Assembly (NCBI GenBank): GCA_964019415.1
Contig: OZ025876.1
Location: forward strand, 8,122,745-8,186,744
Direction: 5' to 3'
Origin: Ianthella basta
Taxonomy: Eukaryota; Porifera; Demospongiae; Verongiida; Ianthellidae
DNA length: 64,000 nucleotides
The notes beneath the pieces are model-generated. The model was not told where the DNA came from. It did not search any database and saw nothing but the letters and a program-made list of their open reading frames with translations. Positions 31,001 through 62,099 of the stretch are shown here, in pieces; the stretch's first letter is position 1; each line of letters starts with the position of its first letter. The position numbers and the translations under genes were made by a program.

Positions 31001-34000
31001 TCATATCTTGTCGAATCTTGCCTAATCTTACCTTGTCATATCTTGCTAAATCTTGCCTAATTTTTCCTTGTCATATGTTGCCAACTCTTGCCAAATCTTA
31101 CCTTGTCATATCTTACTTAATCTTGCCTAATCTTACATTGTCATATCTTGCCTAATTTTGCCTAATTTTACCTTGTCATATCTTGCTAAATCTGGCAAAA
31201 TCTTACCTTGTCATATATTGCCCAATCTTGCCTAATTTTACCTTACCATATCTTGCCAAATCTTACTTTGTCATTAATTGCCAGATCCTACTTTGTCGTA
31301 TCTTGCCAGATCTTACCTGTCATATCTTGCCAAATCTTACCAAATCTTTCCTTGTAATATCTTGCCTAATCTTCCTAATCTTACCTCGTCATATCCTGAC
31401 AGATCTTACCTTATCTTATCTTGCCAAATCTTGCCAAATCTTATCTTGTCATATCTTGCCAAATCTTGCCAAATCTTACCTTGTCATATCTTGCCTAATC
31501 TTGCTTAATCTTACCTTGTCATATCTTGCCAAATCTTGCCAAATCTTACTTTGTCATATCTTGCCAAATCTTGCCTAATCTTTCCTTGTCATATTTTGCC
31601 AAATCTTGCCAAATCTTATCTTGTCATATCTGGCCAAATCTTTCCAAATCTTACGTTGTCATATCTTGCCAAATCTTGCATAATCTTACCTTGTCATATC
31701 TTGACAAATCTTGCTTAATCTTACCTTGTCATATCTTGACAAATCTTGCCTAATTTTACCTTGTTATATCTTGCCAAATCTTGCCTAATCTTACCTTGTC
31801 ATATCTTGCCTAATCTTGCCTAATCTTACACTGTCATATCTTGCCTAATCATGCCTAATCTTACATTGTCATATTTTGCCAAATCTTGTCAAATCTTACC
31901 TTGTCATATCTAGCTAGATATTGCCTAATCTTACCTTGTCATATCTTGCCTAATCTTGCTTAATCCTACCTTGTCATATCTTGCCTAATCTTGCTTAATC
32001 TTACCTCGTCATATCTTGCCAATTCTTGCCGAATCTTACCTTGTCATATCCTGCCTAATCTTTCATTGTCATATCTTGCCCAATCTTGCCTAATTTTACC
32101 TTATCATATCTTACCAAATCTTGCCAAATCTTACCTTGTCATATCTTGTCACATGCTGCTAAATCTAGCCTAATCTTACCTTGTCATATCTTGCGAAATC
32201 TTGCTTAATCTTACCTTGTCATAATTTTCCAGATCTTGCCAAATCTTACCTTATCATACCTTGCCAAATCTTGCCAAATCTTACCTTGTCATAGCTTGCC
32301 TAATCTTGCTTAATTTCACCATGTCATATCTTGCCAAATCTTGCTTAATCTTACCTCGTCATATCTTGCCAAATCTTGTTTAATCTTACCTTGTCATATT
32401 TTGCCTAATCTTGCCTAATCTTACATTGTCATATCTTGCCTAATCTTGCCTAATTTTAAATTGTCATATCTTGCCAAATTTTGCCAAATCTTACCATGTT
32501 ATATCTTGCCAGATCTTACCTTGTCATATCTTGCCAAATCTTGCTTATGTTACCTTGTCATATCTTGCCAAATCTTGCCAAATCTTACCTTGTCATATCT
32601 TGCCAAATCTTTCTTAATCTTAACTTGTCATATCTTGCCAAATCTTGCTTAATCTTACCTTGTCATTTTTGCCAAATCTTGTCAAATCTTACCTTCTCAT
32701 ATCTTGCCAAATCTTCCTTAATCTAACCTCATCATATCTTGCCAAATCTTGCTTAATCTTACCTTGTCATATCTTGCCAAATCTTGCCTAATTTTACCTT
32801 GTCATATCTTGCCAGATCTTGCCTAATCTTACCTTGTCATATTTTGCCTAATCTTGCCTAATCTTACATTGTCATATCTTGCCTAATCTTGCCTAATTGT
32901 ACCTTGTCATATCTTGCCAAATCTTGCCAAATCTTACCTTGTCATATCTTGCCAAATCTTGCCTAATCTAACCTTGGCATATTTTGCCTAATCTTGCTTA
33001 ATCCTACCTTGTCATTCTTGCCTAATCTTGCTTAATCTTACTTGTCATATCTTGCCAAATCTTACCTTGTCATATCTTGCCTAATCTTGCTTAATCTTAC
33101 CTTGTCATTTCTTGCCAAATCTTCTTTAATCTTACCTCGTCATATCTTGCCAAATCTTGCTTAATCTTACCTTGTCATATCTTGCCTAATCTTGCCTAAT
33201 TTTACCTTGTCATATCTTGCCAAAGCTTGCCAAATCTTACCTTGTCATATCTTGCCTAATCTTGCCTAATCTTACATTGTCATATCTTGCCTAATCTTGC
33301 CTAATTTTACCTTGTCATATCTTGCCAAATCTTGCCAAATCTTACCATGTTATATCTTGCCAGATCTTGCCTAATCTTACCTTGTCATACCTTGCTTAAT
33401 CTTGCTTAATCCTACCTTGTCATATCCTGCCAAATCTTGCTTATTCTTACCTTGTCATATCTTGCCAAATCTTCCTTAATCTTACCTCGTCATATCTTGC
33501 CAAATCTTGCTTAATCTTACCTTGTCATAGCTTGCCAAATCTTGCCTATTTTTACCTTGTCATATCTTGCAAATCTTGCCAAATCTTACTTTGTCATATC
33601 TTGCCAGATCTTGCCTAATCTTACCTTGTCATATCTTTCCTAATCTATTTTAATCCTACCTTGTCATATCTTGCCTAATCTTGCTTAATCTTACCTGTCA
33701 TATCTTGCCAAATCTTACCTCGTCATATCTTGCCTAATCTTGCTTAATTTTACCTTGTCATATCTGGCCAAATCTTCTTTAATCATACTTCGTCATATCT
33801 TGCCAAAACTTGCTTAATCTTACCTTGTCATATCTTGCCAAATCTTGCCTAATTTTACATTGTCATATCTTGCCAAATCTTGCCAAATCTTACCTTGTCC
33901 TATCTTGCCTTATCTAGCCTAATCATACATTGTCATATCTTGCCTAATATTGCCTAATTTAACCTAGTCATATCTTGCCAAATCTTGCCAAATCTTACCT

Positions 34001-37000
34001 AGTCATATCTTGCCAAATCTTGCCAAATCTTACCATGTTATATCTTGCCAGATCTTGCCTAATCTTACCTTGTCATATCTTGCCAAATCATGCTTATTCT
34101 TATCTCGTCATATCTTGCCAAATCTTGCCTAATCTTACCATGTCATGTCTTGCCAAATCTTGCCTAATCTTACCTTGTCATATCTTGCCAAATCTTGCCT
34201 AATTTTACCTTGTCATATCTAGCCAAATCTTACCTTGTCTTATCTTGCCTAATCTTGCTTAATCTCACATTGTCATACCTTGCCTAATGTTGCCTAATTT
34301 TACCGTCATATCTTACCAAATCTTGCCAAATCTTACATCGTCATATCTGGCCAAATCTTGCCTAATCTTACCTTGTCATATCTTGCCTAATCTTGCTTAA
34401 TCCTACCTTGTAATATCTTTCCTAATCTTTCTTAATCCTACCATTTCATATCTTGCCTAATCTTGCTTAATCTTACCTTTTCATATCCTGCCAAATCTTA
34501 CCTTGTCATATCTTGCTAAATCTTGTTTAATCCTACCTTGTCATAATTTTCTAGATCTTGCCAAATCTTACCTTATCATACCTTGCCAAATCTTGCCAAA
34601 TCCCACCTTGTCAAAGCTTGCTTAATCTTGCTTAATTTTACCGTGTCATATCTTGCCAAATCTTGCTTAATCTTACCTTGTCATATCTCTCCAAATCTTT
34701 CTTAATCTTAACTTGTCATATCTTGCCAAATCTTGCTTAATCTTACCTTGTCATTTTTGCCAAATCTTGTCAAATCTTACCTTCTCATATCTTGCCAAAT
34801 CTTCCTTACTCTTACCTGATCATATCTTGCCAAATCTTGCTTAATCTTACCTTGTCCTATCTTGCCAAATCTTGCCTAGTTGTACCTTGTCATATCTTGC
34901 CAAATCTTGCCAAATCTTACCTTGTCATATCTTGCCTAATCTTGCCTAATTGTACCTTGTCAGATCTTGCCAAATCTTGCCAAATCTTACCTTGCCAAAT
35001 CTTGCCTAATCTTACTTTGTCATATTTCGCCTAATCTTGCCTAATCTTACATTGTCATATCTTGCCTAATCTTGCCTAGTTGTACCTTGTCATATCTTGC
35101 CAAATCTTGCCAAATCTTACCTTGTCATATCTTGCCAGATCTTGCCTAATCTAACCTTGGCATATTTTGCCTAATCTTGCTTAATCCTACCTTGTCATAT
35201 CTTGCCAAATCTTGCCTAATTTTACCTTGTCATATCTTGCCAAATCTTGCCTAATCTTACTTTGTCATATTTGGCCTAATCTTGCCAAATCTTACCTTGT
35301 CATATCTTGCCTAATCTTGCTTAATCTTACCTTGCCATATCTTGCCAAATCTTCTTTAATCTTACCTCGTCATATCTTGCCAAATCTTGCTTAATCTTAC
35401 CTTGTCATATCTTGCCTAATCTTGCCTAATTTACCTTGTCATATCTTGCCAAATCTTGCCAAATCTTACCTTGTCATATCTTGCCTAATCTAGCCTAATC
35501 TTACATTGTCATATCTTGCCTAATCTTGCCTAATTTTACCTTGTCATATCTTGCCAAATCTTGCCAAATCTTACCATGTTATATCTTGCCAGATCTTGCC
35601 TAATCTTACCTTGTCATACCTTGCCTAATCTTACTTAATCCTACCTTGTCATATCTGGCCAAATCTTGCTTATTCTTACCTTGTTATATCTTGCCAAATC
35701 TTTCTTAATCTTACCTCGTCATATCTTGCCAAATCTTGCTTAATCTTACCTTGTCATAGCTTGCCAAATCTTGCCTATTTTTACCTTGTCATATCTTGCC
35801 AAATCTTGCCTAATCTTACCTTGTCACATTATGCCTAATTTTGCCTAATCTTACAGTGTCATATCTTGCCTAACCTTTCCTAATTTTACCTTGTCATATC
35901 TTGCAAATCTTGCCAAATCGAACTTTGTCATATCTTGCTAGATCTTGCCTAATCTTACCTTGTCATATCTTTCCTAATCTTGCTTAATCCTACCTTGTCA
36001 TATCTTGCCTAATCTTACTTAATCTTACCTGTCATATCTTGCCAAATCTTACCTCGTCATATCTTGCCAAATCTTACCTCGTCATATCTGGCCAAATCTT
36101 CTTTAATCTTACTTCGTCATATCTTGCCAAATCTTGCTTAATCTTACCTTGTCATATCTTGCCAAATCTTGCCTAATTTTACATTGTCATATCTTGCTAA
36201 ATCTTGCCAAATCTTACCTTGTCCTATCTTGCCTTATCTTGCCTAATCATACATTGTCATATCTTGCCTAATATTGCCTATTTTAACCTACTCATATCTT
36301 GCCAAATCTTGCTTAATTTTACCTTGTCATATCTTGCGAAATCTTACCTTGTCATATCTTGCCAAATCTTGCCTAATCTTACCTTGTCATATCTTGCCTA
36401 ATCTTGCTTAATCCTACCTTGTAATATCTTGCCTAATCTTTCTTAATCCTACCATGTAATATCTTGCCCAATCTTGCTTAATCTTACCTTGTCATATCTT
36501 GCCAAATCTTACCTTGTCATATCTTGCCTAATCTTGCTTAATCTTACCTTGTCATATCTTGTCAAATCTTCTTTAATCTTACCTCGTCATATCTTGCCAA
36601 ATCTTGCTTAATCTTACCTTGTCATATCTTGCCAAATCTTGCCTATTTTTACCTTGTCATATCTTGCCAAATCTTGCTTAATCTTACCTTGTCATATCTT
36701 GCCAGATCTTGACTAATCTTGCCTTGTCATATCATGCCTAATCTTGCTTAATCCTACCTTGTCATATCTTGCCTAATCTTGCTTAATCTTACCTTGTCAT
36801 ATCTTGCCAAATCTTCTTTAATCTTACCTCGTCTTATCTTGCCAAATCTTGCTTAATCTTACCTTGTCATATCTTGCCGAATCTTGCCTAATTTTACCTT
36901 GTCATATCTTGCCAGAGCTTGCCAAATCTTACCTTGTCATATCTTGCCTAATCTTGTCTAATCTTGCAATGTCATATCTTGCCTAATCTTGCCTAATTCT

Positions 37001-40000
37001 ACCTTGTCATATCTTGCCAAATCTTGCCAAATCTTACCTTGTTATATCTTGCCAGATCTTGTCTAATCTTAACTTGTCATATCTGGCCTAATCTTGCTTA
37101 ATCCTACCTTGTTATATCTTGCCTATTCTTGTTTAATCTTACCTTGTCATAATTTGCCAAATCTTGCTTAATCTTACCTCGTCATATATTGCCTAATCTT
37201 GCCTAATCTTACCTTGTCATGTCTTACCAAACCTTGCCTAATCTTACCTTGTCATATCTTGCCAAATCTTGCCTAATTTTACCTTGTCATATCTTGCCAA
37301 ATCTTGCCAAATCTTACTTTGTCTTATCTTGCCTAATCTTGCTTAATCTTACATTGTCATATCTTGCCTAATCTTGCCTAATTTTACCGTCATATCTTAC
37401 CAAATCTTACTTAATCTTACCTTGTCATATCTTGTCATATCTTGCCAAATCTTGCTAAATCTTACATTGTCATATCTTGCCAAATCTTCTTTAATCTTAC
37501 CTCGTTATATCTTGCCGAATCTTGCCTAATCTTACCTTGTCATATCTGGCGAAATCTTGCATAATCTTACCTTGTCTTATCTTGCCAAATCTTGCTTAAT
37601 ATTACCTTGTCATACCTTGCCAAATCTTGCTTAATCCTGCCTTGTCATATCTTGCTTAATCTTACCTTGTCATAACTTGCCAAATCTTGTTTAATCTAAC
37701 TTTGTCATATCTTGCCAAATCTTGCCGAATCTTACCTTGTCATATCTTGCCTAATCTTACCTTGTCATATTCTACCTAATCTTGCCTTATTTTACCTTGT
37801 CATATCTTACCAAATCTTGCCTAATCTTACCTTGTCATATCTTGCCAAATCTTACCTAATTTTACCTTGTCATATCTTGACAAAACTTGCCAAATCTTAC
37901 CTTGTCATATCTTGCCAAATCTTGCTTAATCTAACTTTGTTATATCTTGCCTAATCTTGCTTCATCTTTCCTTGTCATATCTTGCCAAATCTTCCTTAAT
38001 CTTTCCTCGTTATATCTTGCCTAATCTTGCTTAATCTTACCTTGTCATATCTTGCCAAATCTTGCCTAATTTTACCTTATCATATCTTGCCGAATCTTGC
38101 CTAATCTTACCTTGTCATATCTTGCCTAATCTTGCCTAATCTTACCTTGTCATATTTTGCCAAATCTTGCATAATCTCACCTTGTCATATCTTGCCAAAT
38201 CTTACCTTGTCTTATCTTGCCAAATCTTGCTTAAATTTACCTTATCATATCTTGCAAAATCTTGCTTAATCTTACCATATCATATTCTGTAATATTTTCC
38301 ACATCTTACCTTGTCATATCTTGCAAAATCTTATCTTGTCATATCTTGCCAAATTTTTCTTAATCTGTCCTCGTCATATCTTGCCAAATCTTGCTTAATC
38401 TTACCTTGTCATATCTTGCCAAATCTTGCTTAATCTTACCTTGTCTTATCTTGCCAAATCTTGCTTAATCTTACCTTGTCATAGCTTGCCAAATCTTGCT
38501 TAATCTTACCTTATCATATTTTGTCAAATTTGCCAAATCTTACCTTGTCATATCTTGCCAAATCTTGCTTAATCTTACCTTGTCATATCTTGCCAAATCT
38601 TGCTTAATCTTACCTTGTCATACCTTGCCAAATCTTGCCTAATCTTACCTTGTCATATGTTGCCATATCTTGCCTAATTTTACATTGTCATATCCAGCCA
38701 AATCTTGCCAAGTCTTACCTTGTCATATCTTGCCTAAACTTGCCTAATCTTACATTGTCATATCGTGCCTAATCTTGCCTAATTTTACATTGTCATATCT
38801 TGCCAAATCTTGCCAAATCTTACCTTGTCATATCTTGCCAGATCTTGCTTAATCTTGCCTTGTCATATCTTGCCTAATCTTGCTTAATCCTGCCTTGTCA
38901 TATCTTGCTTAATCTTGCTTACTCTTACCTTGTCATATCTTGCCAAATCTTGCTTAATCTTACCTCGTCATATCTTGCCAAATCTTGCTTAATCTTACCT
39001 TGTCATATCTTGCCAAATCTAGCCTAATCTTACCTTGTCATATCTTGCTAAATCTTGCCTAATTTTATCTTGTCATATCTTGCCTAATCTTGCCTAATCT
39101 TACCTTGTCATATCTTGCCTAATCTTGCCTAATTTTACCTCGTCATATCATGCCAAATCTTGCCAAATCTTACCTTGTCATATCTTGCCTAATCTTGCTT
39201 AATCTTGCTTAATCTTACCTCGTCATATCTTGCCAAATCTTGCTTAATCTTACCTCGTCATATCTTGCCAAATCTTGCCTAATTTTATTTTGTCATATCT
39301 TGCCTAATCTTGCCTAATCTTACATTGTCATATCTTGCCTAATCTTGCTTAATCTTACCTTGTCATATCATGCCAAATCTTCCTGAATCTTACCTCGTCA
39401 TTTCTTGCCAAATCTTGCTTAATCTTACCTTGTCGTATCTTGCCAAATCTTGCCTAATTTTACCTTGTCATATCTAGCCAAATCTTGCCTAATCTTACAT
39501 TGTCATATCTTCCCTAATCTTTCTTAATCTTACATTGTCATATCTTGCTTAATCTTGCCAAATTTTACCTTGTCATATCTTGCCAAATCTTGCCAAATCT
39601 TACCTTGTCATATCTTGCCAAATCTTACCTTGTCATATCTTGCCAAATCTTGCTTAATCTTACCTTGTCATATCTTGCCAAATCTTCCTTAATTTTTCCT
39701 CGTCATATCTTGCCAAATCTTGCTTAATCTTACATTGTCATCTGTTGCCGAATCTTGCCTAATTTTACCTTGATATATCTTGCCTAATCTTGCCTAATCT
39801 TACATTGTCGTATCTTGCTTAATCTTGCCAAATTTTACCTTGTCATATCTTGCCAAATCTTGCTTAATCTTACCTTGTCATATTTTGCCAGATCTTGCCT
39901 AATCTTACCTTGTCATATCTTGCCTAATCTTACTTAATCCTGCCTTGTCATATTTTGCTTATTCTTGCTTAATCTTACCTTGTCATATCTTGCCAAATCT

Positions 40001-42884
40001 TGCTTAATCTTACCTCGTCATACCTTGCCAAATCTTGTTTAATCTTACCTCGTCATATCTTGCCAAATCTTGCCTAGATTTATCTTGTCGTATCTTACCT
40101 AATCTTGCCTAATCTTACATTGTCATATCCTGCCTAATCTTGCCTAATTTCACCTTGTCATATCTTGCCTAATCTTGCTTAATCTTACCTTGTCATACCC
40201 TGCCAAATCTTCCTTAATTTTACCTCGTCATTTCTTGCCAAATCTTGCTTAATCTTACCTTGTCATATCTTGCCAAATCTTGCCTAATTTTACCTTGTCA
40301 TATCTTGCCAAATCTTGCCTAATCTTAAATTGTCATATCTTGCCTAATCTTGCTTAATCTTACATTGTCATATCTTGCTTAATCTTGCCTAATCTTACCT
40401 TGTCATATCTTGCCAAATCTTGCCAAATCTTACCTTGTCATATCTTGCCAAATCTTACCTTGTCATATCTTGCCAAATCTTACCTTGTCATATCTTGCCA
40501 AATCTTGCTTAATCTTACTTTGTCATATCTTGCCAAATCATCCTTAATTTTTCCTCGTCATATCTTGCCAAATCTTGCTTAATCTTACATTGTCATATGT
40601 TGCCTAATCTTGCCTAATTTTACCTTGATATATCTTGCCTAATCTTGCCTAATCTTACATTGTCATATCTTGCTTAATCTTGCCTAATTTTACCTTGTCA
40701 TATCTTGCCAAATCTTGCCAAAGCTTACCTTGTCATATATTGCCAGATCTTGCCTAATCTTACCTCGTCATATCTTGCCAAATCTTGCTTAATCTTACCT
40801 CGTCATATCTTGCCAAATGTTGCCTAATTTTATCTTGTCATATCTTGCCTAATCTTGCCTAATCTTACCTTGTCATATCTTGCCTAATCTTGTCTAATTT
40901 TACCTTGTCATATCATGCCAAATCTTGCCAAATCTTACCTTGTCATAACTTGCCTAATCTTGCTTAATCTTACATTGTCATATCTTGCCAAATCTTCCTT
41001 AATCTTACCTCGTCATTTCTTGCCAAATCTTGCTTAATCTTACCTTGTCATATCTTGCCAAATCTTGCCTAATTTCACCTTGTCATATCTTGCCAAATCT
41101 TGCCTAATCTTACATTGTCATATCTTGCCTAATCTTGCTTAATCTTACATTGTCATATCTTGCTTAATCTTGCCTAATTTTACTTTGTCATATCTTGCCA
41201 AATCTTGCCAAATCTTACCTTGTCATATCTAGCCAAATCTTACCTTGTCATATCTGGCCTAATCTTGCTTAATCTTACCTTGTCATATCTTGCCAAATCT
41301 TCCTTAATCTTTCCTCGTCATATCTTGCCAAATCTTGCTTAATCTTACATTGTCATATCTTGCCTAATCTTGCCTAATTTTACCTTGATATTTCTTGCCA
41401 AATCTTGCCGAATCTTACCTTGTCATATCTTGCCTAATCTTGCCCAATCTTACATTGTCATATCTTGCCTAATCTTGCCTAATTTTACCTTGTCATATCT
41501 TGCCAAATCTTGCCAAATCTTACCTTGTTATATCTTGCCAGATCTTGACTAATCTTACCTTGTCATATCTATCCTAATCTTGCTTAATCCTACCTTGTCA
41601 TATCTTGTCTAAACTTGCTTAATCTTACCTTGTCATATCTTGCCAAATCTTACCAAATCTTACCTTGTCATATCTTGCCAAATCTTACTTAAACTTACCT
41701 TGTCATATCCTGCCAAATCTTGCTAAATCTTACCTTGTCATATTTTGCCAAATCTTTCCAAATCTTACCTTGTCATATCTTGCCAAATCTTGCCTAATCT
41801 TACATTGTCATATCTTGCCTAATCTAGCCTAACTTTACCTTGTCATATCTTCCCATATCTTGCCTAATTTTACCTTGTCATATCTTACCAAATCTTGCCA
41901 AATCTTACCTTCTCATATCTTGCCTGATCTAGCCTAATCTTAACTTGTCATATCTTGCCTAATCTTGCATAATTTTACTTTGTCATATCCTGCGAAATTT
42001 TACCTTGTCATTTCTGTCCAGATCCTACTTTGTCGTATCTTGCCAGAAAGTACCTGTCATATCTTGTCAGATCTTACCTTTTCAAATCTCGCCAAATCTT
42101 GCCAAATCTTTCCTTGTCATATCTTGCCTAATCTTGCTTAATTTTACCTCGTCAAATCTTGCCAAATCTTGCTTAATCTCACCTTGTCATATCTTGCCAC
42201 ATCTTGCCAAATCTTACATTGTCATATCTTTCTAAATCTTGCCTAATCTTACCTTGTCATATCTTGCCAAATCTTGCCAAATCTTACCTTGTCATATCTT
42301 GCCAAATCTTGCCAAATCTTACTTCATCATATCTTGCCAAATCTTGTTTAATGCTACCTTGTCATATCTTACTAAATCCTGCGTAATCTTACCTTGTCAT
42401 ATCTTGCCAAATCTTGCCAAATCTTACCTTGTCATATCTTGCCTAATCTTGCCCAATCTTACATTGTCATATCTTGCCTAAACTATCTTAATCCTGCCTT
42501 ATCATATCTTGCTTAATCTTGCTTAATCTTACCTTGTCATATCTTGCCAAATCTTACTGAATCTTACCATGTCATATCTTGCCAAATCTTGCTATATCTT
42601 AGTTTGTCATATATTGCCAGATCTTGCCTTATCTTACCTTGTCATATCTTGCCTAATCTTGCTTAATCCTGCCTTATCATATCTTGCTTAATCTTGCTTA
42701 ATCTTACCTTGTCATATCTTGCCAAATCTTGCCTAATCTTACCTTGTCATATCTTGCCAAATCATGCCTAATTTTATCTTGTCATAATTTGCCAAATCTT
42801 GCCAAATCTTACCATGTCATAGCTTGCCTAATCTTGCTTAATTTTACCGTGTCATATCTTGCCAAATCTTGCTTAATCTTACCT
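28086..42884 (+). repeat. 35-bp satellite, block 2 (about 420 units)
   Basis: Same 10+10+15 unit and orientation as block 1. Higher-order repetition is strong: 30.22-31.1 kb and 31.18-32.0 kb are related at an offset of about 963 bp; 33.9 and 36.2 kb share a GCCTTATCT...CATACATTG cassette about 2.3 kb apart; 39.5, 40.4 and 41.2 kb share a block repeating every ~0.85 kb. A distinctive variant cassette (TTTCTTGCCAGATCCTACTT, then TGTCGTATC) occurs at about 28788, 30301, 31264 and 42001. No gene, promoter or RNA is visible. Confidence 0.98.
42877..42884 (+). repeat. target-site duplication, left (TCTTACCT)
   Basis: Eight bases of satellite identical to 45967-45974. Removing the element and one copy restores a satellite unit in perfect register (GCTTAATCTTACCT joined to TGTCATATC). 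Confidence 0.75.
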
Positions 42885-42888
42885 AAAA

Positions 42889-45858
42889 ATGGCGGACGCG
42901 GAGCTGTCGCGAGATGAAGAGGAAGATGAAGATGAAGAGGAAGCTGAAGCGCAACCGTCTAGAGGAGGAAGCCAAAGTGCCATCTGTGCAGTTTGTGGCA
43001 GGGTCCTTACGTTGACGAAGGCTGGATTAGTCCGAACCCATGGCCCTCTTGGCAACCGCTGCCCCGGTTCGCGCGCGCCACCTGATGCGAGCGGCGCCCC
43101 CCTTACTGCTCTCACTGAAGATGTACGAGCACCTCAGCTGCCAGCACATGGGGATGATGACTACCCTCAGCACACACTGCCCAAGCCCCGGGTTAAGCCT
43201 ATACGGAGGATCCCGCGCGCATCCCGAGAACTTGCCGCCAAGAAATTCACCTCCATAATCGAGGCTGTAGTAGCCAACCCCGCCAACGTACCTGCTTGGG
43301 ATCGTCTTTTTCGTTTCAGCTCTCGCTGCCTACGAGCCCCAAGCCGGGGTGGCCGTCGGCAGAACCTAGTCAGGGTCTTCAACGAACAAATCAGGGTAGA
43401 ATCGGATCCTTCAGCCCTTCCATCACCCAGTAATCCGCAGAGCCGCCGGAAGCACCAGAAAGTGCGAGACTCAATGGAATCACTCGCCGGACTTGTTGCC
43501 TCCAAACTGGAGGAAGGCGACTTCAAGGGTGCAGTCCGCCTAGCCTGCTCAGAAGACTCCATTGCTAGTCAGAATGACAGTACCCTAGAGGCTCTTAGAC
43601 GGAAGCACCCCGCACCACACCCCGACTCCCAAATGCCACCTCCTTCTGAGGAATTCAGCCGCTGCCCCACTGTGTCAGAGGAGGAAGTTGCCCAAGCGAT
43701 TCGTTCTTTCCCGAATGGCTCTGCAGGGGGGCCAGATGGCTTAATGCCACAGCACCTCAAGGACATGACCGGAGCCTCTGCAGAGAGCGGGGGTCCAGTG
43801 TTACTGTCAGCACTCACTGCCCTGGTCAACATCATTCTCCAAGGCAAAGTTCCAAGGACAGTCCGGCCACTTTTCTTCGGCGCCAACCTTACAGCCCTCA
43901 CAAAGAAGGATGGAGGGGTGAGACCTATCGCAGTTGGTTGCACCCTCCGCCGGCTTGCAGCAAAGTTAGCAGGGAGGTGCGTCATGGATGCCATGGGAGA
44001 GCTCTTGGCCCCGCGCCAGTTGGGGTATGGCACCAAACTAGGCTGCGAGGCTGCAGTTCATGCAACCCGCCTCTACTTGAGTAACCTTCAGCCTGGCCAA
44101 GTCATCCTCAAGCTGGACTTTCAGAATGCCTTTAACTGCATCCGCCGTGACAAGATGATACAGGCTGTGAGCATTCTGGCTCCAGAGCTTACCCCTTTTG
44201 TTCATGCCTCTTACAGTGAACCTTCCTCACTTTTCTGGGGAGAGACCTCCCTCATGTCATCGGAAGGCGTACAGCAAGGTGACCCCCTTGGTCCCTTGCT
44301 CTTCTGCCTCACCATCCACAAGCTCACCTCCCAGCTGGGGTCTGAATTTTGCCTTTTCTACCTTGACGATGGGACCCTAGGTGGAGATGCTGAACAGGCC
44401 CTTCAGGACCTGCGTTTGGTGGAGCAAGGTGCAGGAGAGCTAGGTCTCTCCTTGAACCATGCGAAGTCTGAGGTCATCAGTAAAGACCCTGCTGCCACAG
44501 GTACCTTACTTGCTGCAGCTCCCAACCTCCAGGTGACTGACCCAGACTCTGCCACCCTCCTGGGTTCCCCCCTTGGCGGCATTGACAGCATCAATGAGTC
44601 CATCCGTGACAAGGTGGAATGCCTGAGAATCTTGGGTAACAGACTCGAGCACCTTCACACTCAAGACTCCCTCCTCCTCCTCCGCCACTCCCTAGCAATC
44701 CCGAGACTGTCATACATCCTCCGAACCTCTCCTTGTTTCCTTTCTGCAGAGCTCCGAGTTTATGATGATCTGCTGAAGTCCATCACTAGTAGCATCACCA
44801 ACAACTCTCTCCAGAGCTCAGTCACAGCGTGGTCCCAGGCCTCCCTCCCAGTCAAGAATGGTGGACTGGGCATCAGGAGTGCAGTCCAGCTTGCGCCCTC
44901 TGCCTTTCTGGCATCTGCTGCTGGCTCCTCCACCCTAGTTGCCCAGATTATCCCCAGGCACTTGCGGAAGTTCCCAATCGTTGCCAGGGAGGAGGCATTC
45001 AGTTGCTGGTCACAAGGACACCACAACCCTCCCCCACCCGACTCAGTATCCCACCGCCAGAGAGAATGGGACTCCCCAAGAGTTAAAGCCTCAGCCCAAG
45101 CCCTACTTGAGGATGCCCCAGATGCAAGATCCCGTGCCCGCCTCCTAGCTGCCAGCAGAAAGGAGTCTGGTGCCTGGCTGAATGCCCTCCCAGTATCAAC
45201 CCTGGGGCTACGCTTGGATGACGAGACAACGCGTGTGGCTGTGGGCCTCAGACTCGGCACACCTCTCTGCCGTCCACATGAATGCAGTAATTGTGGAACC
45301 ATGGTGGATGACCTGGCCACCCACGGCCTCAGCTGCCGTTTCAGTGAAGGCCGACATCCCCGCCATGCAGCTGTCAACTGCATTATTCAGAAGGCTTTGA
45401 CTTCAGCCAGGGTACCTTCCAGGTTGGAACCATCGGGACTGTACAGGTCTGATGGGAAGCGCCCTGATGGTTGCACCATCCTGCCATGGAAGGCAGGGAA
45501 GGTATTAGTATGGGATGCCACATGTCCGGACACTTACGCGCCCTCCCACATCTCCGCTGCAGCCAAAGGAGCAGGTGCAGTGGCTGCACAAGCCGAGCAC
45601 TTGAAGATTTCAAAGTATGCTCACCTTGAATCGAGCCACCTTTTCGTGCCAATTGCAGTGGAGACATCAGGTGTGCTGGGCCAAGCAGCACTAGACTTTG
45701 TGAGCGACCTAGGACAACGTCTCCATCAGGTGACTGGAGAAGCTAGAAGCAAGGAATACCTCCTGCAGAAGCTGTCAATAGCTATCCAGCGGGGGAATGC
45801 GGCAGCAGTGCTCGGTACTGCTGAGAAAGACAGGTATCAGGATCCCTTCTGGGATTAA
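42889..45858 (+). CDS. retrotransposon polyprotein: zinc finger, reverse transcriptase, restriction-like endonuclease
   Basis: A 989-residue protein expected to nick target DNA and copy its own RNA onto the nicked end (target-primed reverse transcription). Residues 8-20 are very acidic. C33, C36, H51 and C58 form a putative nucleic-acid-binding zinc finger. Reverse transcriptase spans roughly 265-600: SFPNGSAGGPDGLMPQH, GGVRPIAVG, motif A LKLDFQNAFN with D410, motif B GVQQGDPLGP (460-468 region) and motif C YLDD with D493/D494, so the catalytic aspartates are present. A thumb-like and linker region follows. C799, C802, H812 and C816 form a CCHC knuckle, then GRHPRH, KRPDG (D860) and VWDATCPD (D876), matching the knuckle-plus-PD-X(n)-D signature of R2-type endonucleases (n is 15 here; usually 12-14). 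The first ATG sits in a good context (AAAAATGG) four bases from the element end. No stop or frameshift. Function is inferred from motifs. Confidence 0.88.
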   Translation: MADAELSRDEEEDEDEEEAEAQPSRGGSQSAICAVCGRVLTLTKAGLVRTHGPLGNRCPGSRAPPDASGAPLTALTEDVRAPQLPAHGDDDYPQHTLPKPRVKPIRRIPRASRELAAKKFTSIIEAVVANPANVPAWDRLFRFSSRCLRAPSRGGRRQNLVRVFNEQIRVESDPSALPSPSNPQSRRKHQKVRDSMESLAGLVASKLEEGDFKGAVRLACSEDSIASQNDSTLEALRRKHPAPHPDSQMPPPSEEFSRCPTVSEEEVAQAIRSFPNGSAGGPDGLMPQHLKDMTGASAESGGPVLLSALTALVNIILQGKVPRTVRPLFFGANLTALTKKDGGVRPIAVGCTLRRLAAKLAGRCVMDAMGELLAPRQLGYGTKLGCEAAVHATRLYLSNLQPGQVILKLDFQNAFNCIRRDKMIQAVSILAPELTPFVHASYSEPSSLFWGETSLMSSEGVQQGDPLGPLLFCLTIHKLTSQLGSEFCLFYLDDGTLGGDAEQALQDLRLVEQGAGELGLSLNHAKSEVISKDPAATGTLLAAAPNLQVTDPDSATLLGSPLGGIDSINESIRDKVECLRILGNRLEHLHTQDSLLLLRHSLAIPRLSYILRTSPCFLSAELRVYDDLLKSITSSITNNSLQSSVTAWSQASLPVKNGGLGIRSAVQLAPSAFLASAAGSSTLVAQIIPRHLRKFPIVAREEAFSCWSQGHHNPPPPDSVSHRQREWDSPRVKASAQALLEDAPDARSRARLLAASRKESGAWLNALPVSTLGLRLDDETTRVAVGLRLGTPLCRPHECSNCGTMVDDLATHGLSCRFSEGRHPRHAAVNCIIQKALTSARVPSRLEPSGLYRSDGKRPDGCTILPWKAGKVLVWDATCPDTYAPSHISAAAKGAGAVAAQAEHLKISKYAHLESSHLFVPIAVETSGVLGQAALDFVSDLGQRLHQVTGEARSKEYLLQKLSIAIQRGNAAAVLGTAEKDRYQDPFWD

Positions 45859-45966
45859 CTGATTGCATGTGCATGCTCAATGACTTGTCATTCTTGTAAT
45901 TTAACTTGAGTATATTGTTAAGTAATCTTTTCCTGCATGCTATTTTGATATATTTATTTTTATCTA
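45859..45966 (+). other. 3' untranslated region of the retrotransposon
   Basis: 108 bp after the TAA stop, AT-rich, containing GCATGTGCATGC (a near-palindrome at 45864-45875) and a second CTGCATGC at 45933. It ends in TATTTATTTTTATCTA without poly(A) or simple repeat. In R2-type elements the 3' UTR is the structure recognised by the reverse transcriptase; here that is inference. Confidence 0.6.
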
Positions 45967-48900
45967 TCTTACCTTGTCATATCTTGCCAAATCTTGCCTA
46001 ATCTTACCTTGTCATATCTTGCCATATCTTGCCTAATTTACCTTGTCATAACTTGCCAAATCTTGCCAAATCTTACCTTGTCATAGTTTGCCTAATCTTG
46101 CCTAATCTTACATTGTCATATCTTGCCTACTCTTGCCCAATTTTACCTTGTCATATCTTGCCAAAGCTTGCCAAATCTTACCTTGTCATAGCTTGCCTAA
46201 TCTTGCTTAATTTTACCGTGTCATATCTTGCCAAATCTTTCTTAATCCTACCTTGTCATATCTTGCCAAATCTTGCTTAATCTTAACTTGCCATATCTTG
46301 CCAAATCTTGCTTAATCTTACCTCGTCATATCATGCCAAATCTCGCTTAATCTTACCTTGTCATATCTTGCCAAATCTTACCTAATTTTACCTTGTCATA
46401 TCTTGCAAAACCTTGCCAAATCTTTCCTTGTCATATCTTGCCAGATCTTGCCAAATCTTGCCTTGTCATAATTTGCCTCATCTTGCTTAATCCTACCTTG
46501 TCACATCTTGCCTAATCTTGCTTAATCTTACCTTGTAATATCTTACCAAATCTTGCTTAATCTTACCTCGTCATATCTTGCCAAATCTAGCTTAATCTTA
46601 CCTTGTCATATCTTGCCAAATCTTGCCTAATCTTACCTTGTCATATCTTGCCAAATCTTGCCTAATTCTCCTTGTCATATGTTGCCAACTATTGCCAAAT
46701 CTTACCTTGTCATATCTTACCTAATCTTGCCGAATCTTGCCTAATTTTACCTCGTCATATATTGCCTAATCTTGCATAATTTTACCTTGTCATATCTTGC
46801 CAAATCATACTTTGTCATTTCTTGCCAGATCCTACTTTGTCGTATCTTTCCAGATCTTACCTGTGATATCTTGCCATATCTTACCAAATCTTTCCTTGTA
46901 ATATCTTGCCTAATCATGCCTAAACGTACCTCATCATATCTTGCCAGATCTTACCTTGTCATATCGTGCCAAATCTTGCCAAATCTTAACTTGTAATATC
47001 TTGCCAAATCTTGCCTTGTCATAGCTTGCCTAATCTATCTTAATTTCACCGTCTCATATCTTGCCAAATCTTGCTTAATCTTACCTTGTTATATCTTGCC
47101 AAATCTTGCTTGATCTTACCTTGTCATATCTTGCCATATCTTGCCTAATTTTACCTTGTCATAACTTGCCAAATCTTGCCAAATCTTACCTTGTCATATC
47201 TTGCCTAATCTTGCCTAATCTAACATTGTCATATCCTGCCTAATCTTGCCTAATTTAACCTTGTCATATCTTGCCAAATCTTGCCAAATCTTACTTTGTC
47301 ATAGCTTGCCTAATCTTGCTTAATTTTGCCATATCTTGCCAAATCTTGCCAAATCTTAACTTGTCATATCTTGCCTAATCTTGCTAAATCTTACCTTGTC
47401 ATATCTTTCCAGATCTTGCCTAATCTTACCTTGTCATATCTTGCCTAATCTTGCTTAATCCTACCTTGTCACATCTTGCCTAATATTGCTTAATCTTACC
47501 TTTTAATATCTTACCAAATCTTGCTTAATCTTACCTCGTCATATCTTGCCAAATCTAGCTTAATCTTACCTTGTCATATCTTGCCAAATCTTGCCTAATT
47601 TTTCCTTGTCATATGTTGCCAACTCTTGCCAAATCTTACCTTGTCATATCTCACTTAATCTTGCCATATCTTGCCAAATTTTACCTCGTCATATCTTGCA
47701 AAATCTTGCAAAATATTAACTTGTCATATATTGCCTAATCTTGCATAATTTTACCTTGTCATATCTTGCCAAATCTTACTTTGTCATTTCTTGCCAGATC
47801 CTGCTTTGTCGTATCTTGCCAGATCTTACCTGTGATATCTTGCCATATCTTACCAAATCTTTCCTTGTAATATCTTGCCTAATCATGCCTAAACGTACCT
47901 CATCATATCTTGCCAGATCTTACTTTGTCATATCTTGCAAAATCTTGCCAAATCTTACCTTGTCATATCTTGCCAGATCTTGCCTAATCTTACCTTGGCA
48001 TATCTTGCCTAATCTTGCTTAATCCTACCTTGTCATATCTTGCCTAATCTTGCTTAATCTTACCTTGTCATATCTTGCCAAATCTTACCTTGTCATATCT
48101 TGCCTAATCTTGCTTAATCTTACCTTGTCATATCTTGCCAAATCTTCTTTAATCTTACCTCGTCATATCTTGCCAAATCTTGCTTAATCTTACCTTGTCA
48201 TATCTTGCCAAATCTTGCCTAATTATACCTTGTCTTATCTTGCCAAATCTTGTCAAATCTTACCTTGTCATATCTTGCCTAATCTTTCCTAATCTTACAT
48301 TGTCATATCTTGCCTAATCTTGCCTAATTTTACCTTGTCATATCTTGCCAAATCTTGCCAAATCTTACCATGTTATATCTTGCCAGATCTTGCCTAATCT
48401 TACCTTGTCATATCTTGCCTAATCTTGCTTAACCCTACCTTGTCATATCTTGCCAAATCTTGCTTACTCTTACCTCGTTATATCTTGCCAAATCTTGCTT
48501 AATCTTACATTGTCATACCTTGCCAAATCTTGCCTCATTTTCCTTGTCATATCTTGCCAAATCTTGCCTAATCTTACCTTGTCATATCTTGCCAAATCTT
48601 CCTTAATCTTACTTCGTCATACCTTGCCAAATCTTGCTTAATCTTACCTTGTCATATCTTGCCAAATGTTGCCTAATTTTACCTTGTCATATTTTGCCAA
48701 ATCTTGCCTAATCTTACCTTGTCACATTTTGCCTAATCTTGCCTAATCTTACATTGTCATATTTTGCCTAATCTTGCCTAATTTTACCTTATCATATCTT
48801 GCCTAATCTTCTTTAATCTTACCTCGTCATATCTTGCCAAATCTTGCTTAATCTTACCTTGTCATATGTTGCCAAATCTTGCCTAATTTTACCTTGTCAT

Positions 48901-51900
48901 ATCTTGCCAAATCTTGCCAAATCTTCCCTTGTCATATCTTGCCAGATCTTGCCTAATCTTGCTTAATCCTACCTTGTCATATCTTGCCTAATCTTGCTTA
49001 ATCTTACCTGTCATATCTTGCCAAATCTTACCTTGTCATATCTTGCCTAATCTTGCTTAATCTTACCTTGTCATATCTTGCCAAATCTTCTTTAATCTTA
49101 ACTCGTCATATCTTGCCAAATCTTGCTTAATCTTAACTTGTCATATCTTGCCAAATCTTGCCTAATTATACCTTGTCATATCTTGCCAGATCTTGCCAAA
49201 TCTTACCTTGTCATATCTTGCCAAATCTTGCCTAATCTTACATTGTCATATCTTGCCTAATCTTGCCTAATTTTACCTTGTCATATCTTGCCAAATCTTG
49301 CCAAATCTTACCTTGTTATATCTTGCCAGATCTTGCCTAATCTTACCTTGTCATATCTTGCCTAATCTTACTTAATCCTACCTTGTCATATCTTGCCTAA
49401 TCTTGCTTAATCTTACTTTGTCATAACTTGCCAAATCTTGCTTAATCTTACCTCGTCATATATTGCCAAATCTTACTTAAACTTAGCTTGTCATGTCTTG
49501 CCTAATCTTGCCTAATCTTACCTTGTCTTATCTTGCCAAATCTTGCCTAATTTTACCTTGTCATATCTTGCCAAATCTTGCTTAATCTTACATTGTCATA
49601 TCTTGCCTAATCTTGCCTAATTTCACTGTCATATCTTACCAAATCTTGCTTAATCTTACCTTCTCATATCTTGCCAAATCTTGCCTATTCTTACCTTGTC
49701 ATATCTTTCCAAATATTGCCTAATCTTACCTTGTCAAATCTTGCCAGATCTTTCCTAATCTTACCTTGTCATATCTTGCCAAATCTTGCCTATTCTTACC
49801 TTGTCATATCTTTCCAAATATTGCCAAATCTTACCTTGTCATATCTTTCCCAATATTGCCAAATCTTACCTTGTCATATCTTGCCAGATCTTGCCTAATT
49901 TTACCTTGTCATATCTTGCCTAATCTTGCTTAATCCTACCTTGTCATATCTTGCCTAATCTTGCTCAATTCTACATTGTCATATCTTGCCTAATCTTGCC
50001 TATTCTTACCTTGAAATAACTTACCAAACTTGCCTATTCTTACCTTGTCATATCTTTCCAAATATTGCCAAATCTTACCTTGTCATATCTTTCCAAATAT
50101 TGCCAAATCTTACATTGTCATATCTTGCCAAATCTTGCCTAATTTTACCTTGTCATATCTTGCCTAATCTTGCTTAATCCTACCTTGTCATATCTTGCCT
50201 AATCTTGCTTTGTCTTACCTTGTCATATCTTACCAAATCTTGCATAATCTTACCACGTCATATCTTGCTAAATCTTGCTTAATCGTACTTTGCCATATCT
50301 TGCCAAATCTTGCCTAATTTTACCTTGTCATATCTTGCCAAATCTTGCCTAATCTTACCTTGTCATATCTTGCCAAATCTTGCCTTATTTCACCTTGTTA
50401 TATCTTGCCAAATCTTGCAAAATCTTACCTTGTCATATATTGCCTAATCTTGCATAATTTTACTTTGTCATATCTTTCCAAATCTTACTAGTCATTTCTT
50501 TCCAGATCCTACTTAGTCGTATCTTGCCAGATCTTACCTGTCATATCTTGCCAAATCTTACCAAATTTTTCCTTGTAGTATCTTGCCTAATCTTGCCTAA
50601 TCTTACCTCGTCGTATCTTGCCAGATAACACCTTGTCATATCTTGCCAAATCATGCTTAATCTTACCTTGTCATATCTTGCCAAAACTTGCTTAATTTTA
50701 CCTAGTCATATCTTGCCAAATCTTGCTTAATCTTACCTTGTCATATCTTGCCACATCTTGCCAAATCTTACCTTTTCATATCTTGCCAAATCTTGCCAAA
50801 TCTTACCTTGCCATATCTTGCCAAATCTTACTTTGTCTTATCTTGCCTAATCTTGCTTAATCTTACATTGTCATATCTTGCCTAATCTTGCCTAATTTTA
50901 CCGTCATATCTTACCAAATCTTGCCAAATCTTACCTTGTCATATCTTGCCAGATCTTGCCTAATCTTACCTTGTCATATCTTGCCTAATCTTGCTTAATC
51001 CTACCTTGTCATATCTTGCCTAATCTTGCTCAATCCTACATTGTCATATCTTGCCTAAACTTGCCTATTCTTACCTTGAAATATCTTACCAAATCTTGCG
51101 TATTCTTACCTTGTCATATCTTTCAAAATATTGCCAAATCTTACCTTGTCATATCTTTCCAAATATTGCCAAATCTTACCTTGTCATATCTTGCCAAATC
51201 TTGCCTAATTTTACCTTGTCATATCTTGCCTAATCTTGCTTAATCCTACCTTGTCATATCTTGCCTAATCTTGCTTAATCTTACCTTGTCATATCTTACC
51301 AAATCTTGCATAATCTTACCACGTCATGTCTTGCCAAATCTTGCCTAATCTTACCTTGTCATATCTTGCCAGATCTTGCCTAATTTCACCTTGTTATATC
51401 TTGCCAAATCTTGCAAAATCTTACCTTGTCATATATTGCCTAATCTTGCATAATTCTACTTTGTCATATCTTCCAAAATCTTACTTTGTCATTTCTTGCC
51501 AGATCCTACTTAGTCGTATCTTGCCAGATCTTACCTGTCATATCTTGCCAAATCTTACCAAATCTTTCCTTGTAGTATCTTGCCTAATCTTGCCTAATCT
51601 TACCTCGTCATATCTTGCCAGATATTACCTTGTCTTATCTTGCCAAATCTTGCTTAATCTTACCTTGTCATATCATGCCAAATCTTGCTTAATTTTACCT
51701 CGTCATATCTTGCCAAATCTTGCTTAATCTTACCTTGTCATATCTTGCCACATCTTGCCAAATCTTACCTTGTCATATCTTGCCAAATCTTGCCAAATCT
51801 TACCTTGCCATATGATGCCAGATCTTCCTTAATCTTACCTTGTCATATTTTGCCTAATCTTTATTAATCTTACCCTGTCATATCTTGCCAAATCTTGCCT

Positions 51901-54900
51901 AATCTTACCTTGTCATATCTTGCCTAATATTGCTTAATTTTACCTTGTCATATCTAGCCAAATCTTGCCAAATCTTACCTTGTCATATCTTGCCTAATCT
52001 TGCCTAATCTTACATTGTCATATCTTGCCTACTCTTGCCTAATTTTACCTTGTCATATCTTGCCAAAGCTTGCAAAATCTTACCTTGTCATAGCTTGCCT
52101 AATCTTGCTTAATTTTACCGTGTCATATCTTGCCAAATCTTGCTTAATCCTACCTTGTCATATCTTGCCTAATCTCGCTTAATCTTACCTTGTCATGTCT
52201 TGCCTAATCTTGCTTAATCTTACCTTGTCATATCTTGCCAAATCTTGCCTAATGTTACCTTGTCATATCTTGCCAAATCTTGCCAAATCTTTCCTTGTCA
52301 TATCTTGCCAGATCTTGCCTAATCTTATCTTGTCATAATTTGCCTAATCTTGCTTAATCCTACATTGTGACATCTTGCCTAATCTTGCTCAATCTTACCT
52401 TGTAATATCTTACCAAATCTTGCTTAATCTTACCTCGTCATATCTTGCCAAATCTAGCTTAATCTTACCTTGTCATATGTTGCCAACTCTTGCCAAATCT
52501 TACCTTGTCATATCTTACCTAATCTTGCCTAATCTTGCCTAATTTTACCTCGTCATATCTTGCCTAATCTTCCTTAATCATACCTCGTACTATCTTGCCA
52601 AATCTTGCTTAATTTTACCTTTTCATATCTTGCCAAATCTTACCTTGTCATATCTTGCCAGATCTTGCCTAATCTTACCTTGTCATATCTTGCCTAATCT
52701 TGCTTAATCTTACCTTGTCATATCATACCTAATCTTGCCTTATCTTGCCTAATTTTACCTCGTCATATCTTGCCAAATCTTGCAAAATATTAACTTGTCA
52801 TATATTGCCTAATCTTGCATAATTTTACCTTGTCATATCTTGCCAAATCTAACTTTGTCATTTCTTGCCAGATTCTACTTTGTCGTATCTTGCCAGATCT
52901 TACCTGTGATATCTTGCCATATCGTACCAAATCTTTCCTTGTAATATCTTGCCTAATCTTGCCTAAACATACCTCATCATATCTTGCCAAATCTTACCTT
53001 GTAATATTGTGCCAAATCTTGTTTAATTTTACCTCGTCATATCTTGCCAAATCTTGCTTAATGTTACCTTGTCATATCTTGCCACATCTTGCCAAATCGT
53101 ACCTTGGCATATCTTGCCAAATCTTGCTTAATCTTACCTTGTCATATCTTGCCAAATCTTGCTTAATCTTACCTTGTCATAATTTGCCAAATCTTGCCAA
53201 ATCTTACCTTGTCATATCTTGCCAAATCTTGCTTAATCTTACCTTGTCATATCTTGCCAAATCTTGCCTAATTTTACCTTGTCATATCTTGCCAACTCTT
53301 GCCAAATCTTACCTTGTCATATTTTGCCTAATCTTGCCTAATCTTACATTGTCATATCTTGCCAAATCTTGCCTAATTTTACCTTGTCATATCTTGCCAA
53401 ATCTTACCTTGTCATATCTTGCCTAATCTTGCTTAATCCTACCTTGTCATATCTTGCCTAATCTTGCTTAATCTTACCTGTCATATCTTGCCAAATCCTA
53501 CCTTGTCATATCTTGCCTAATCTTGCTTAATCTTACCTTGTCGTATCTTGCCAAATCTTCTTTAATCTTACCTTGTCAAATCTTGCCAAATCTTGCTTAA
53601 TCTTACCTTGTCATATCTTGCCAAATCTGGCCAAATTTTACCTTGTCATATCTTGCCAAATCTTGCCTAATCTTACCTTGTCATATCTTGCCTAATCTTG
53701 CCTAATCTTACATTGTCATATCTTGCCTAGTCTTGCATAATTTTACCTTGTCATATCCTGCCAAATCTTACTTTGTCATTTCTTGCCAGATCCTACTTTG
53801 TCGTATCTTGCCAGATTTTACCTGTCATATCTTGCCAGATCTTACCTTGTAAAATCTTGCCAAACCTTACCAAATCTTTCCTTGTCATGTCTTGCCTACT
53901 CTTGCCTAATGTTACCTCGTCATATCTTGCAGAATCTTACCTTGTCATATCTTGCCAAATCTTGCCAAATCTTACCTTGTCATATTTTGCCAAATCTTGC
54001 TTAATCTTACCTTGTCATAACTTGCCAAATCTTGCCAAATCTTACCTTGTCTTATCTTGCCAAATCTTGCTTAATCTTACCTTGTCATAACTTACCAAAT
54101 CTTGCTTAATCTTATCTTATCTAATTTTGCCGAATCTTGCCAAATCTTACCTAGTCATATCTTGCCAAATCTAGCTTAATCTTACCATGTCATATCTTGC
54201 CTAATCTTGCTTTATCTTACCTTTTCATAACTTGCCAAATCTTGCTTAATCTTACTTTGTCATATCTTGCCAAATCTTACCTTGTCATATCTTGCCAGAT
54301 CTTACCTTGTCATATCTTGCCGAATCTTGCCTAATCTTACCTTGTAATATTTTGCAATATCTTGTCAAATCTTACCTTGTCATATCTTGCCACATCTTAC
54401 CTTGTCATATCTTGCCAAATCTTGCCAAATCTTACTTCGTCATATCTTGCCAGATCGATCATACCTCGTCATATCTTGCCAGATCTTACCTTGTCATATC
54501 TTGCCGAATCTTACCTTGTAATATCTTGCCATATCTTGTCAAATCTTACCTTGTCATATCTTGCAAAATCTTACCTTGTCATATCTTGCCAAATCTTGCC
54601 AAATCTTACTTCGTCATATCTTGCCAGATCGATCATACCTCGTCATATCTTGCCAGATCATACCTCGTCATATCTTGCCAAATTTTTCTTATACCTTGTC
54701 ATATCTTGCCGAATCTTGCCAAATTTTACCTTGTCATATCTTGCTAAATCTTGCCTAATTTTACCTTGTCATATCTTGCCAAATCTTGCCGAATCTTACC
54801 TTGTCGTATCTTGCCTAATCTTACATTGCCATATCTTGCCTAATCTTTCCTAATTTTATTTTGTCATATCTTGCCAAATCTTTCCTAATCTTACCTTGTC

Positions 54901-60340: not shown

Positions 60341-60830
60341 ATGTTGCCAAATCTTGCTTAATCTTACCTTGTCATATTTTGCCAAATTTTGCAAAATCTT
60401 GCCTTGTCATATCTTGCCAAATCTTGCTTATTCTTACCTCGTCATATCTTGCCAAATCTTGTTTAATTTTACCTCGTCATATCTTGCCAAATCTTGCTTA
60501 ATCTTACCTTGTCATATCTTGCCACATCTTGCCAAATCTTGCCTTATCATATCTTGTCAAATCTTGCCTAATCTTACCTTGTCATATGTTGCCAAATCTT
60601 GCTTAATCTTACCTTGTCATATTTTGCCAAATTTTGCAAAATCTTACCTTGTCATATCTTGCCAAATCTTGCTTATTCTTACCTCGTCATATCTTGCCAA
60701 ATCTTGTTTAATTTTACCTCGTCATATCTTGCCAAATCTTGCTTAATCTTAACTTGTCATATCTTGCCACATCTTGCCAAATCTTGCCTTGTCATATCTT
60801 GTCAAATCTTGCCTAATCTTACCTAGTCAT
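60341..60830 (+). repeat. tandem pair of 245-bp higher-order units
   Basis: 60341-60585 and 60586-60830 share private variants (ATGTTGCC, CAAATTTTGCAAAATC, TGCTTATTCTTACCTCG, TTGTTTAATTTTACCTCG, CTTGCCACATC) at an offset of exactly 245 bp, which is seven 35-bp units, with only a few differences. Confidence 0.85.
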
Positions 60831-62099
60831 ATCTTGCTAAATCTTGCTTAATCTTACCTTGTCATATTTTGCCAAATCTTGCCAAATCTAACCTTGTCAT
60901 ATCTTGCCAAATCTTGCTTAATCTTACTTTATCATATTTTGCCAAATCTTGCCAAATCTTACCTTGTCATATCTTGCCAAATCTTGCCAAATCTTACCTC
61001 GTCATATCTTGCCAAATCTTGCTTAATCTTATCTTGTCATATCTTGCCATATCTTGCCTAATCTTACCTTGTCATATCTTGCCTAATCTTGCTTAATCCT
61101 ACCTTGTTATATCTTACCTAATCTTCTTAATCTTAACTTGCCATAACTTACCAAATCTTGCTTAATCTTACCTCGTCATATCTTGCCAAATCTTGCTTAG
61201 TCTTACCTTGTCATATCTTGTCAAATCTTGCCTAATCCTACCTTGTCATATCTTGCCAAATCTTGCCTGATTTTTCCTTGTCATATGTTGCCAACTCTTG
61301 CCAAATCTTACCTTGTCATATCTTACCTAATCTTGCCTAATCTTACATTGTCATATCTTGCCTATTTTTGCCTAATTTTACCTTGTCATATCTTGCTATA
61401 TCTTGCAAAATCTTACCTTGTCATAAATTGCCTAATCTTGCATAATTTTACCTTACTATATCTTGCCAAATCTTACTTTGTCATTACTTGCCAGATCCTA
61501 CTTTGTCGTATCTTGCCAGATCTTACCTGTCATATCTTGCCAAATCTTACCAAATCTTTCCTTGTAATATCTTGCCTAATCTTCCTAATCTTACCTAGTC
61601 ATATCCTGACAGATCTTACCTTATCTTATCTTGCCAAATCTTGCCAAATCTTATCTTGTCATATCTTGCCAAATCTTGTTTAATTTTACCTCGTCATATC
61701 TTGCCAAATCTTGCTTAATCTTACCTTGTCATATCTTGCCACATCTTGCCAAATCTTGCCTTGTCATATCTTGTCAAATCTTGCCTAATCTTACCTTGTC
61801 ATACCTTGCTAAATCTTGCTTAATCTTACCTTGTCATATTTTGCCTAATCTTGCCAAATCTTACCTTGTCATATCTTGCCAAATCTTGCTTAATCTTACT
61901 TTGTCATATTTTGCAAATTCTTGCCAAATCTTATTTTGTCATATCTTGCCAAATCTTGCCAAATCTAACCTTGTCATATCTTGCCAAATCTTGCTTAATC
62001 TTACCTTGTCATATTTTGCCAAATCTTGCCAAATCTTACCTTGTCATATCTTGCCTAATCTTGCCAAATCTTACCTTGTCATATCCTGACAAATCTTCC

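Follow-up and report, generated by a model that had tools for sequence, protein, structure and literature searches.

R2 elements, which are the basis of gene-insertion tools, carry N-terminal zinc fingers of the CCHH type. They are LINEs (non-LTR retrotransposons) with a restriction-like endonuclease (RLE), a type held in passages of PMC4640811 to be early branching among LINEs. The same passages describe oomycete Utopia elements, of the NeSL clade, as having an RNase H domain upstream of the reverse transcriptase (RT), and report for HERO, a named RLE clade, many insertions that are non-specific, some of them in microsatellites; according to parts of PMC10294476, HERO elements are the sole R2-type LINEs reported in bivalves. 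For LINE endonucleases, parts of PMC5678591 describe an LNALP-type linker motif upstream of a CCHC knuckle, a knuckle spacing of CX2-3CX7-8HX4C, and a KX2KY motif, a displaced catalytic lysine that sets these endonucleases apart from ordinary PD-(D/E)XK enzymes.

We analyzed a 64-kb stretch of DNA (the window) and are confident that it contains one copy of an RLE-type LINE inserted in a host satellite array (Table 1). The element is of an ordinary kind and a known type, a real and apparently intact RLE LINE copy. Its ORF, which a preliminary description had reported as uninterrupted over 989 codons, was confirmed and is presumably longer than chance would give; that the element is intact is plausible. 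The N-terminal zinc finger, D410, D493, D494, the knuckle, PD860, and D876 all lie where that description had placed them. The finger reads C33-x2-C36-x14-H51-x6-C58, and the RT motifs are LDFQNAF (409 to 415, with D410), QQGDPLGP (462 to 469), and YLDDG (491 to 495, with D493 and D494). In the C-terminal part, the knuckle (C799-x2-C802-x9-H812-x3-C816) is, at x9 and x3, slightly off the published spacing, and the endonuclease motifs are RHAAVN (825 to 830), RPD (858 to 860), D876, and KISKY (906 to 910). Two additional RLE hallmarks, LNALP (764 to 768) and K906-x2-K-Y910, were found. A Pfam scan of the 989 residues gave RVT_1 as its only match up to an E value of 1, with no APE domain and no match to a Myb motif after the N-terminal finger. 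There is no long terminal repeat, because the element, when compared with the window by blastn, matches only itself; this search also found no further copy of the element in the 64 kb. The single PHROGs match was weak (E = 0.023); in NCBIfam, a generic group II RT match scored 45.3 bits (cutoff, 300), and a Drt5 match was weak.

Table 1. Positions in the window of the satellite array, the inserted element, and its parts
Feature	Position	Strand	Remarks
Host satellite array, period of 35 bp	19684..64000	.	Interrupted by the LINE copy and one other insert
Left 9-bp direct repeat, ATCTTACCT	42876..42884	.	Presumed target-site duplication
Element (LINE copy), about 3.08 kb	42885..45966	+	3′ end at 45965 or 45966
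Single ORF, 989 aa plus stop	42889..45858	+	No internal stop
N-terminal CCHC zinc finger, residues 33-58	42985..43062	+	Motif spacing only
RT core, Pfam RVT_1, residues 338-531, E 1.9e-19	43900..44481	+	
LNALP motif of linker, residues 764-768	45178..45192	+	Motif described in parts of PMC5678591
C-terminal CCHC knuckle, residues 799-816	45283..45336	+	Motif, profile comparison, and alignment of relatives
Restriction-like endonuclease core: RH 825-826, RPD 858-860, D876, K906-x2-K-Y910	45361..45618	+	
3′ untranslated region, 108 bp	45859..45966	+	AT-rich, without poly(A)
Right 9-bp direct repeat, ATCTTACCT	45966..45974	.	

The layout is like that of R2 (R2Tg, R2Pm, and R2Bm; PDB 9nl3, 9dou, 9nl2, and 8gh6) in its single ORF, N-terminal zinc finger, RT, and linker motif, followed by a CCHC knuckle and then an RLE with RH, PD, and D in equal order; the K-x2-K-Y and linker motifs are as parts of PMC5678591 describe them for R2. 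However, the RT is 23 to 26% identical to that of R2 and branches apart from the R2 group in the tree, YLDD stands where R2 has FADD or YADD, QQGDPLGP stands in place of (K/R)QGDP(M/L)SP, the N-terminal finger is CCHC, and the copy lies in a 35-bp satellite rather than in 28S rDNA. With oomycete Utopia, as described in passages of PMC4640811, the element shares the order zinc finger, RT, zinc finger, RLE and insertion in repeated DNA, but it lacks an RNase H domain ahead of the RT, and around this one copy Rfam at gathering score found no U2 snRNA or spliced-leader target, such as NeSL/Utopia elements use, in the window. Indeed, Rfam gave 0 matches at gathering score over the whole window, and a lax threshold over positions 42700 to 43300 gave five matches (E values of 0.86 to 7.1), all far below gathering scores. 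The element is likened to HERO by the description of that clade alone and not by sequence. Dualen/RandI elements have both an APE and an RLE, whereas the 989-aa protein has no APE domain.

We assign the element to the RLE-type LINEs, in agreement with the preliminary description, because the series CCHC, RH, PD, D, K-x2-K-Y is ordered and its profile matches R2 above shuffled controls, and because R2 is the best PDB relative by profile and by fold and the relatives described below share the C-terminal core. As a single sequence compared with solved structures, the window protein scored best with R2 (25.2 bits), with a Cas-fused RT at 16.4 and L1 at 13.0 or less. With a profile made from the window protein and four relatives (L012, L013, L016, and L018), the best PDB relatives were R2 proteins, at 74.4, 73.8, 64.1, 56.6, and 51.5 bits, and L1 reached at most 48.1; a second, weak stretch of this profile (i-Evalue of 1.3 at best) ran in order over the R2 knuckle, RHN, PD, and D. 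A PDB search with the C-terminal profile alone returned no R2 chain. When the C-terminal profile was compared with three R2 segments by hhalign, the P value was 2e-4; it was 4.6e-4 with the whole-protein alignment and 8.3e-5 with other match columns, at a score of 33.3 compared with 17.7 for the best of 100 column shuffles, and the hhalign probabilities were moderate (33 to 61%). The profile alignment paired knuckle, RH, PD, and D with R2 in order; for K906, the match is to the published motif rather than to the R2 alignment, as the R2 segments stop before it. An AlphaFold2 model of the window protein was poor (mean pLDDT of 45), and one of the C-terminal domain alone, from a single sequence, was unusable (pLDDT of 35). 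The best four Foldseek matches of the full-length model were R2 proteins, in loose superpositions (TM of about 0.3; rmsd of 21 to 32), and among the 50 rows listed, 7 R2 rows span 906 to 1079 columns and 7 L1 rows span 578 to 620. One further chain among these 50 rows, from the yeast spliceosome and presumably Prp8, spans 1169 columns. The layout of Prp8 is R2-like, according to parts of PMC5678591.

An APE-type LINE whose C terminus resembles an RLE by chance would be consistent with the scores of L012 as a single query, in which L1 (25.0) comes close to R2 (29.6 for R2Bm and 23.4 for R2Tg), and with the joining of R2 and L1 in the RT tree. However, the 989 residues hold no APE domain, the ordered core resembles R2 above shuffles and is kept in the relatives, and the RT is sister to L1 in none of three trees, so that we consider an APE-type element extremely improbable.

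Ten relatives, all with a related RT, were found in bacterial metagenome bins. A degenerate pattern for VQQGDPLGP gave 16 loci in a collection of prokaryote contigs, 4 of them relatives (L012, with an E value of 2e-61, L013, L016, and L018) and 12 not; the same bins also yielded L031/L037, L032, and L033. Two phylum searches, with at most two candidates scored per listed genome, matched 2 of 387 genomes (adding L038) and 2 of 396 genomes (adding L039/L040), and in each case one of the two was a known bin. With matches in so few genomes, a bacterial origin is less likely than contamination; because the relatives occur so rarely, we presume that they are eukaryotic contaminants of the bins and that protists or algae are their probable source. 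Unnamed proteins of a similar kind are probably common in invertebrate databases. A first scan of prokaryote contigs, plasmid and phage searches, and IMG/VR scans, in which the protein, alignment A1, and three degenerate patterns served as queries, gave nothing useful; 10 loci from the degenerate-pattern scans of IMG/VR had no tblastn match below an E value of 0.03, and the peptide words of the element had no match in the literature.

In the RT core, L012, L013, and L016 share about 40% identity with the window protein. L012 and L013 are 97% alike in DNA, differing at 71 of 2466 nt and at 8 residues, and their dN of 0.005 against a dS of 0.108 indicates that this lineage is under purifying selection. 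The C-terminal alignment comprised nine rows (the window protein, L012, L016, L018, L037, L032, L033, L040, and L039; L013 and L038 were left out), and the RLE core is common to all eight of these relatives. Eight residues (C802, H812, C816, H826, E847, D876, K906, and G928) are invariant in 9/9 rows; C799 and D860 are each kept in 8/9, the exceptions being L018 and L012, respectively. Less constant are Y910 (6/9), the proline of PD, P859 (3/9), and the second lysine of KX2KY, K909 (3/9). Compared with the window element, L012 and L016 have longer N termini, L018 has a second ORF, L016 and L032 have a 2A-like peptide, and L040 has an RNase H-like region.

Several of these features were seen in their own right. 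The 2A-like peptides, both in frame near the N terminus and on the reverse strand, read GDGDVEANPGP in L016 (residues 34 to 44 of the open frame) and SGIESNPGP in L032 (residues 39 to 47); such peptides are reported for APE-type elements, L1Tc, and sea-urchin genes in parts of PMC4981915 and PMC12846837. In L018, a gag-like ORF1 with a sub-threshold CCHC match precedes the RT-RLE ORF2. The first 141 bp of this 7065-bp contig (1 to 141), the name of which bears k141, are repeated exactly at 6925 to 7065; the contig is either a circle or a head-to-tail tandem of a 6924-bp unit. The RNase H-like region of L040 (residues about 164 to 294) lies upstream of the RT, a likeness to Utopia, and its Pfam match (E = 0.005) is below the curated cutoff. 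L012 has an open frame at positions 1 to 600, upstream of the RT ORF, with a near-threshold RNase H1 N-terminal (Cauli_VI) match (E = 7e-4; 20.2 bits against a cutoff of 21).

Three RT trees, of 10, 13, and 16 rows, were built with one distant Cas-fused RT as the outgroup; they did not include 9dou, 8ibw, further L1 entries, or group II RTs. The window RT grouped with L012/L013 and L016 at SH-aLRT/UFBoot supports of 98.8/92 (13 rows) and 96.9/82 (16 rows), and in the 10-row tree it was sister to L012/L013/L016 plus L018 (UFBoot of 92). The L040 RT was not closely grouped with it in the 16-row tree. The R2 and L1 rows fell outside the set of relatives (93.3/95 with 13 rows and 89.2/82 with 16 rows), and the three R2 rows grouped together at 74.9/80 in the 16-row tree, with the window RT elsewhere; for this reason, we do not file the element as R2. 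No placement in an APE-type clade was obtained with these R2 and L1 references. Because R2 itself joined L1 (80.8/76 with 13 rows and 89.7/88 with 16 rows), RLE-type and APE-type elements cannot be told apart by their RT alone in these trees. Nor does the RT tree, in our view, establish a new clade, given its moderate supports, its distant outgroup, and R2 and L1 as the only named LINEs in it. From these sequence comparisons, the RLE lineage of the element appears poorly placed, with R2 set apart by the tree and HERO and Utopia compared by description only; the earlier statement that the family could not be placed in a named clade still holds, the RT having stayed apart from the R2 rows in a small tree. 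We can suggest only tentatively, and with more doubt than belief, that the window element and L012/L013/L016 (and, more distantly, L018, L031, L032, L033, and others) might form a deep RLE-LINE lineage outside R2, and maybe outside all five named RLE clades, that extends across distant eukaryotes, includes some members in which 2A-like peptides or a distinct gag-like ORF occur, and has in the satellite array a safe target in this host. If true, a lineage separate from the named clades would help to root the LINE tree.

Four nucleotides separate the 5′ junction from the ATG, whose start context was judged by eye to be good. The element could instead be a remnant of a longer RLE LINE, 5′ truncated or old rather than full length and active, in which the ATG at nt 5 is coincidental. 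Such a reading would fit the longer N termini of the relatives (the first residue of RVT_1 is 449 in L016 and 478 in L012, compared with 338 here) and the further upstream ORF of L018. We nevertheless regard truncation as unlikely, since an in-frame ATG within the first nucleotides and in good context is followed by 989 open codons with a complete N-terminal zinc finger, and random truncation would rarely give such a start (about 3% by a rough, uncomputed estimate).

The flanks of the element carry the perfect direct repeat that had been described, but its length is 9 bp (ATCTTACCT); the 8 bp given previously are the same repeat minus one base. With a repeat of this length, the 3′ end of the element is ambiguous by one base. 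Nine bases are an ordinary length for a LINE duplication, and a target-site duplication is the likeliest reading. Alternatively, the repeat could be a product of the 35-bp period, the element having replaced part of the array (with, for example, 26 bp lost). Among 20,000 random breakpoint pairs in the array, 5.6% yielded a perfect repeat of at least 9 bp (6.6% for at least 8 bp), so that such a repeat does arise by chance, but 94% gave a shorter one. The empty site, made from the flanks and one repeat copy, matched satellite elsewhere in the window at 69/70 bases at best, a value reached at 6 of the best 8 places listed, and longer joins matched at 96/100 and 131/140. Sixty native satellite stretches compared in the same way gave means of 67.7 of 70 (range, 51 to 70), 95.2 of 100, and 132.2 of 140. 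Eight other join offsets were tried; seven scored 46 to 59, and one whole unit (35 bp) scored 67. The join with one further 35-bp unit removed thus fits nearly as well (67/70, 92/100, and 129/140), as replacement would allow. Overall, we judge it rather improbable that the period accounts for the repeat. The restored satellite register of the preliminary description stands, in that the empty site is within the native range, but it adds little and is not independent evidence, because the array is periodic. We also considered a kinship between the 3′ untranslated region and the satellite (CTTGTCAT-TCTTG), which was not convincing (20/500 shuffles scored as high). Recent insertion and possible activity of the copy stay conjectural, given the chance level of about 6% for such a repeat in this satellite.

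If the target-site duplication is genuine, insertion may have followed the course known from R2. The element protein would bind its own RNA, and the C-terminal RLE would nick the satellite; the nicked strand could then prime reverse transcription from the 3′ end of the RNA. Cutting of the other strand 9 bp away and completion of the second strand would leave the 9-bp duplication. By analogy with R2, the N-terminal CCHC finger probably aids target choice. Because the element is almost without a 5′ leader, we speculate that read-through from the array may provide its transcription.

A compact (989-aa) RLE LINE that falls outside R2 and lies within an abundant 35-bp satellite would offer a useful comparison for the evolution of target choice; one copy alone is a good lead, short of a discovery. 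Further, truncated families of the element's lineage seem to be present in the host. Fossil C-terminal tails of a diverged relative lie on the minus strand at positions 14655 to 14729 and 16274 to 16348 of the window, at 48 and 52% identity over 25 aa and with a frame that stays open for another 15 codons up to a stop; they belong to a stretch that is duplicated locally (89% over 643 bp). The 35-bp satellite holds one more insert, of about 0.8 kb (positions 27262 to 28088, approximately), which has imperfect terminal inverted repeats recognized by eye (GGCGT-TCCACACG) and looks like a MITE. Elsewhere in the window, long arrays of a 21-bp satellite (CATCCTGTAGGGGGTCCAGTG) at positions 1229 to 12024 flank a 10-bp satellite (CTCATCTTGC), which lies between them at positions 4514 to 7862.
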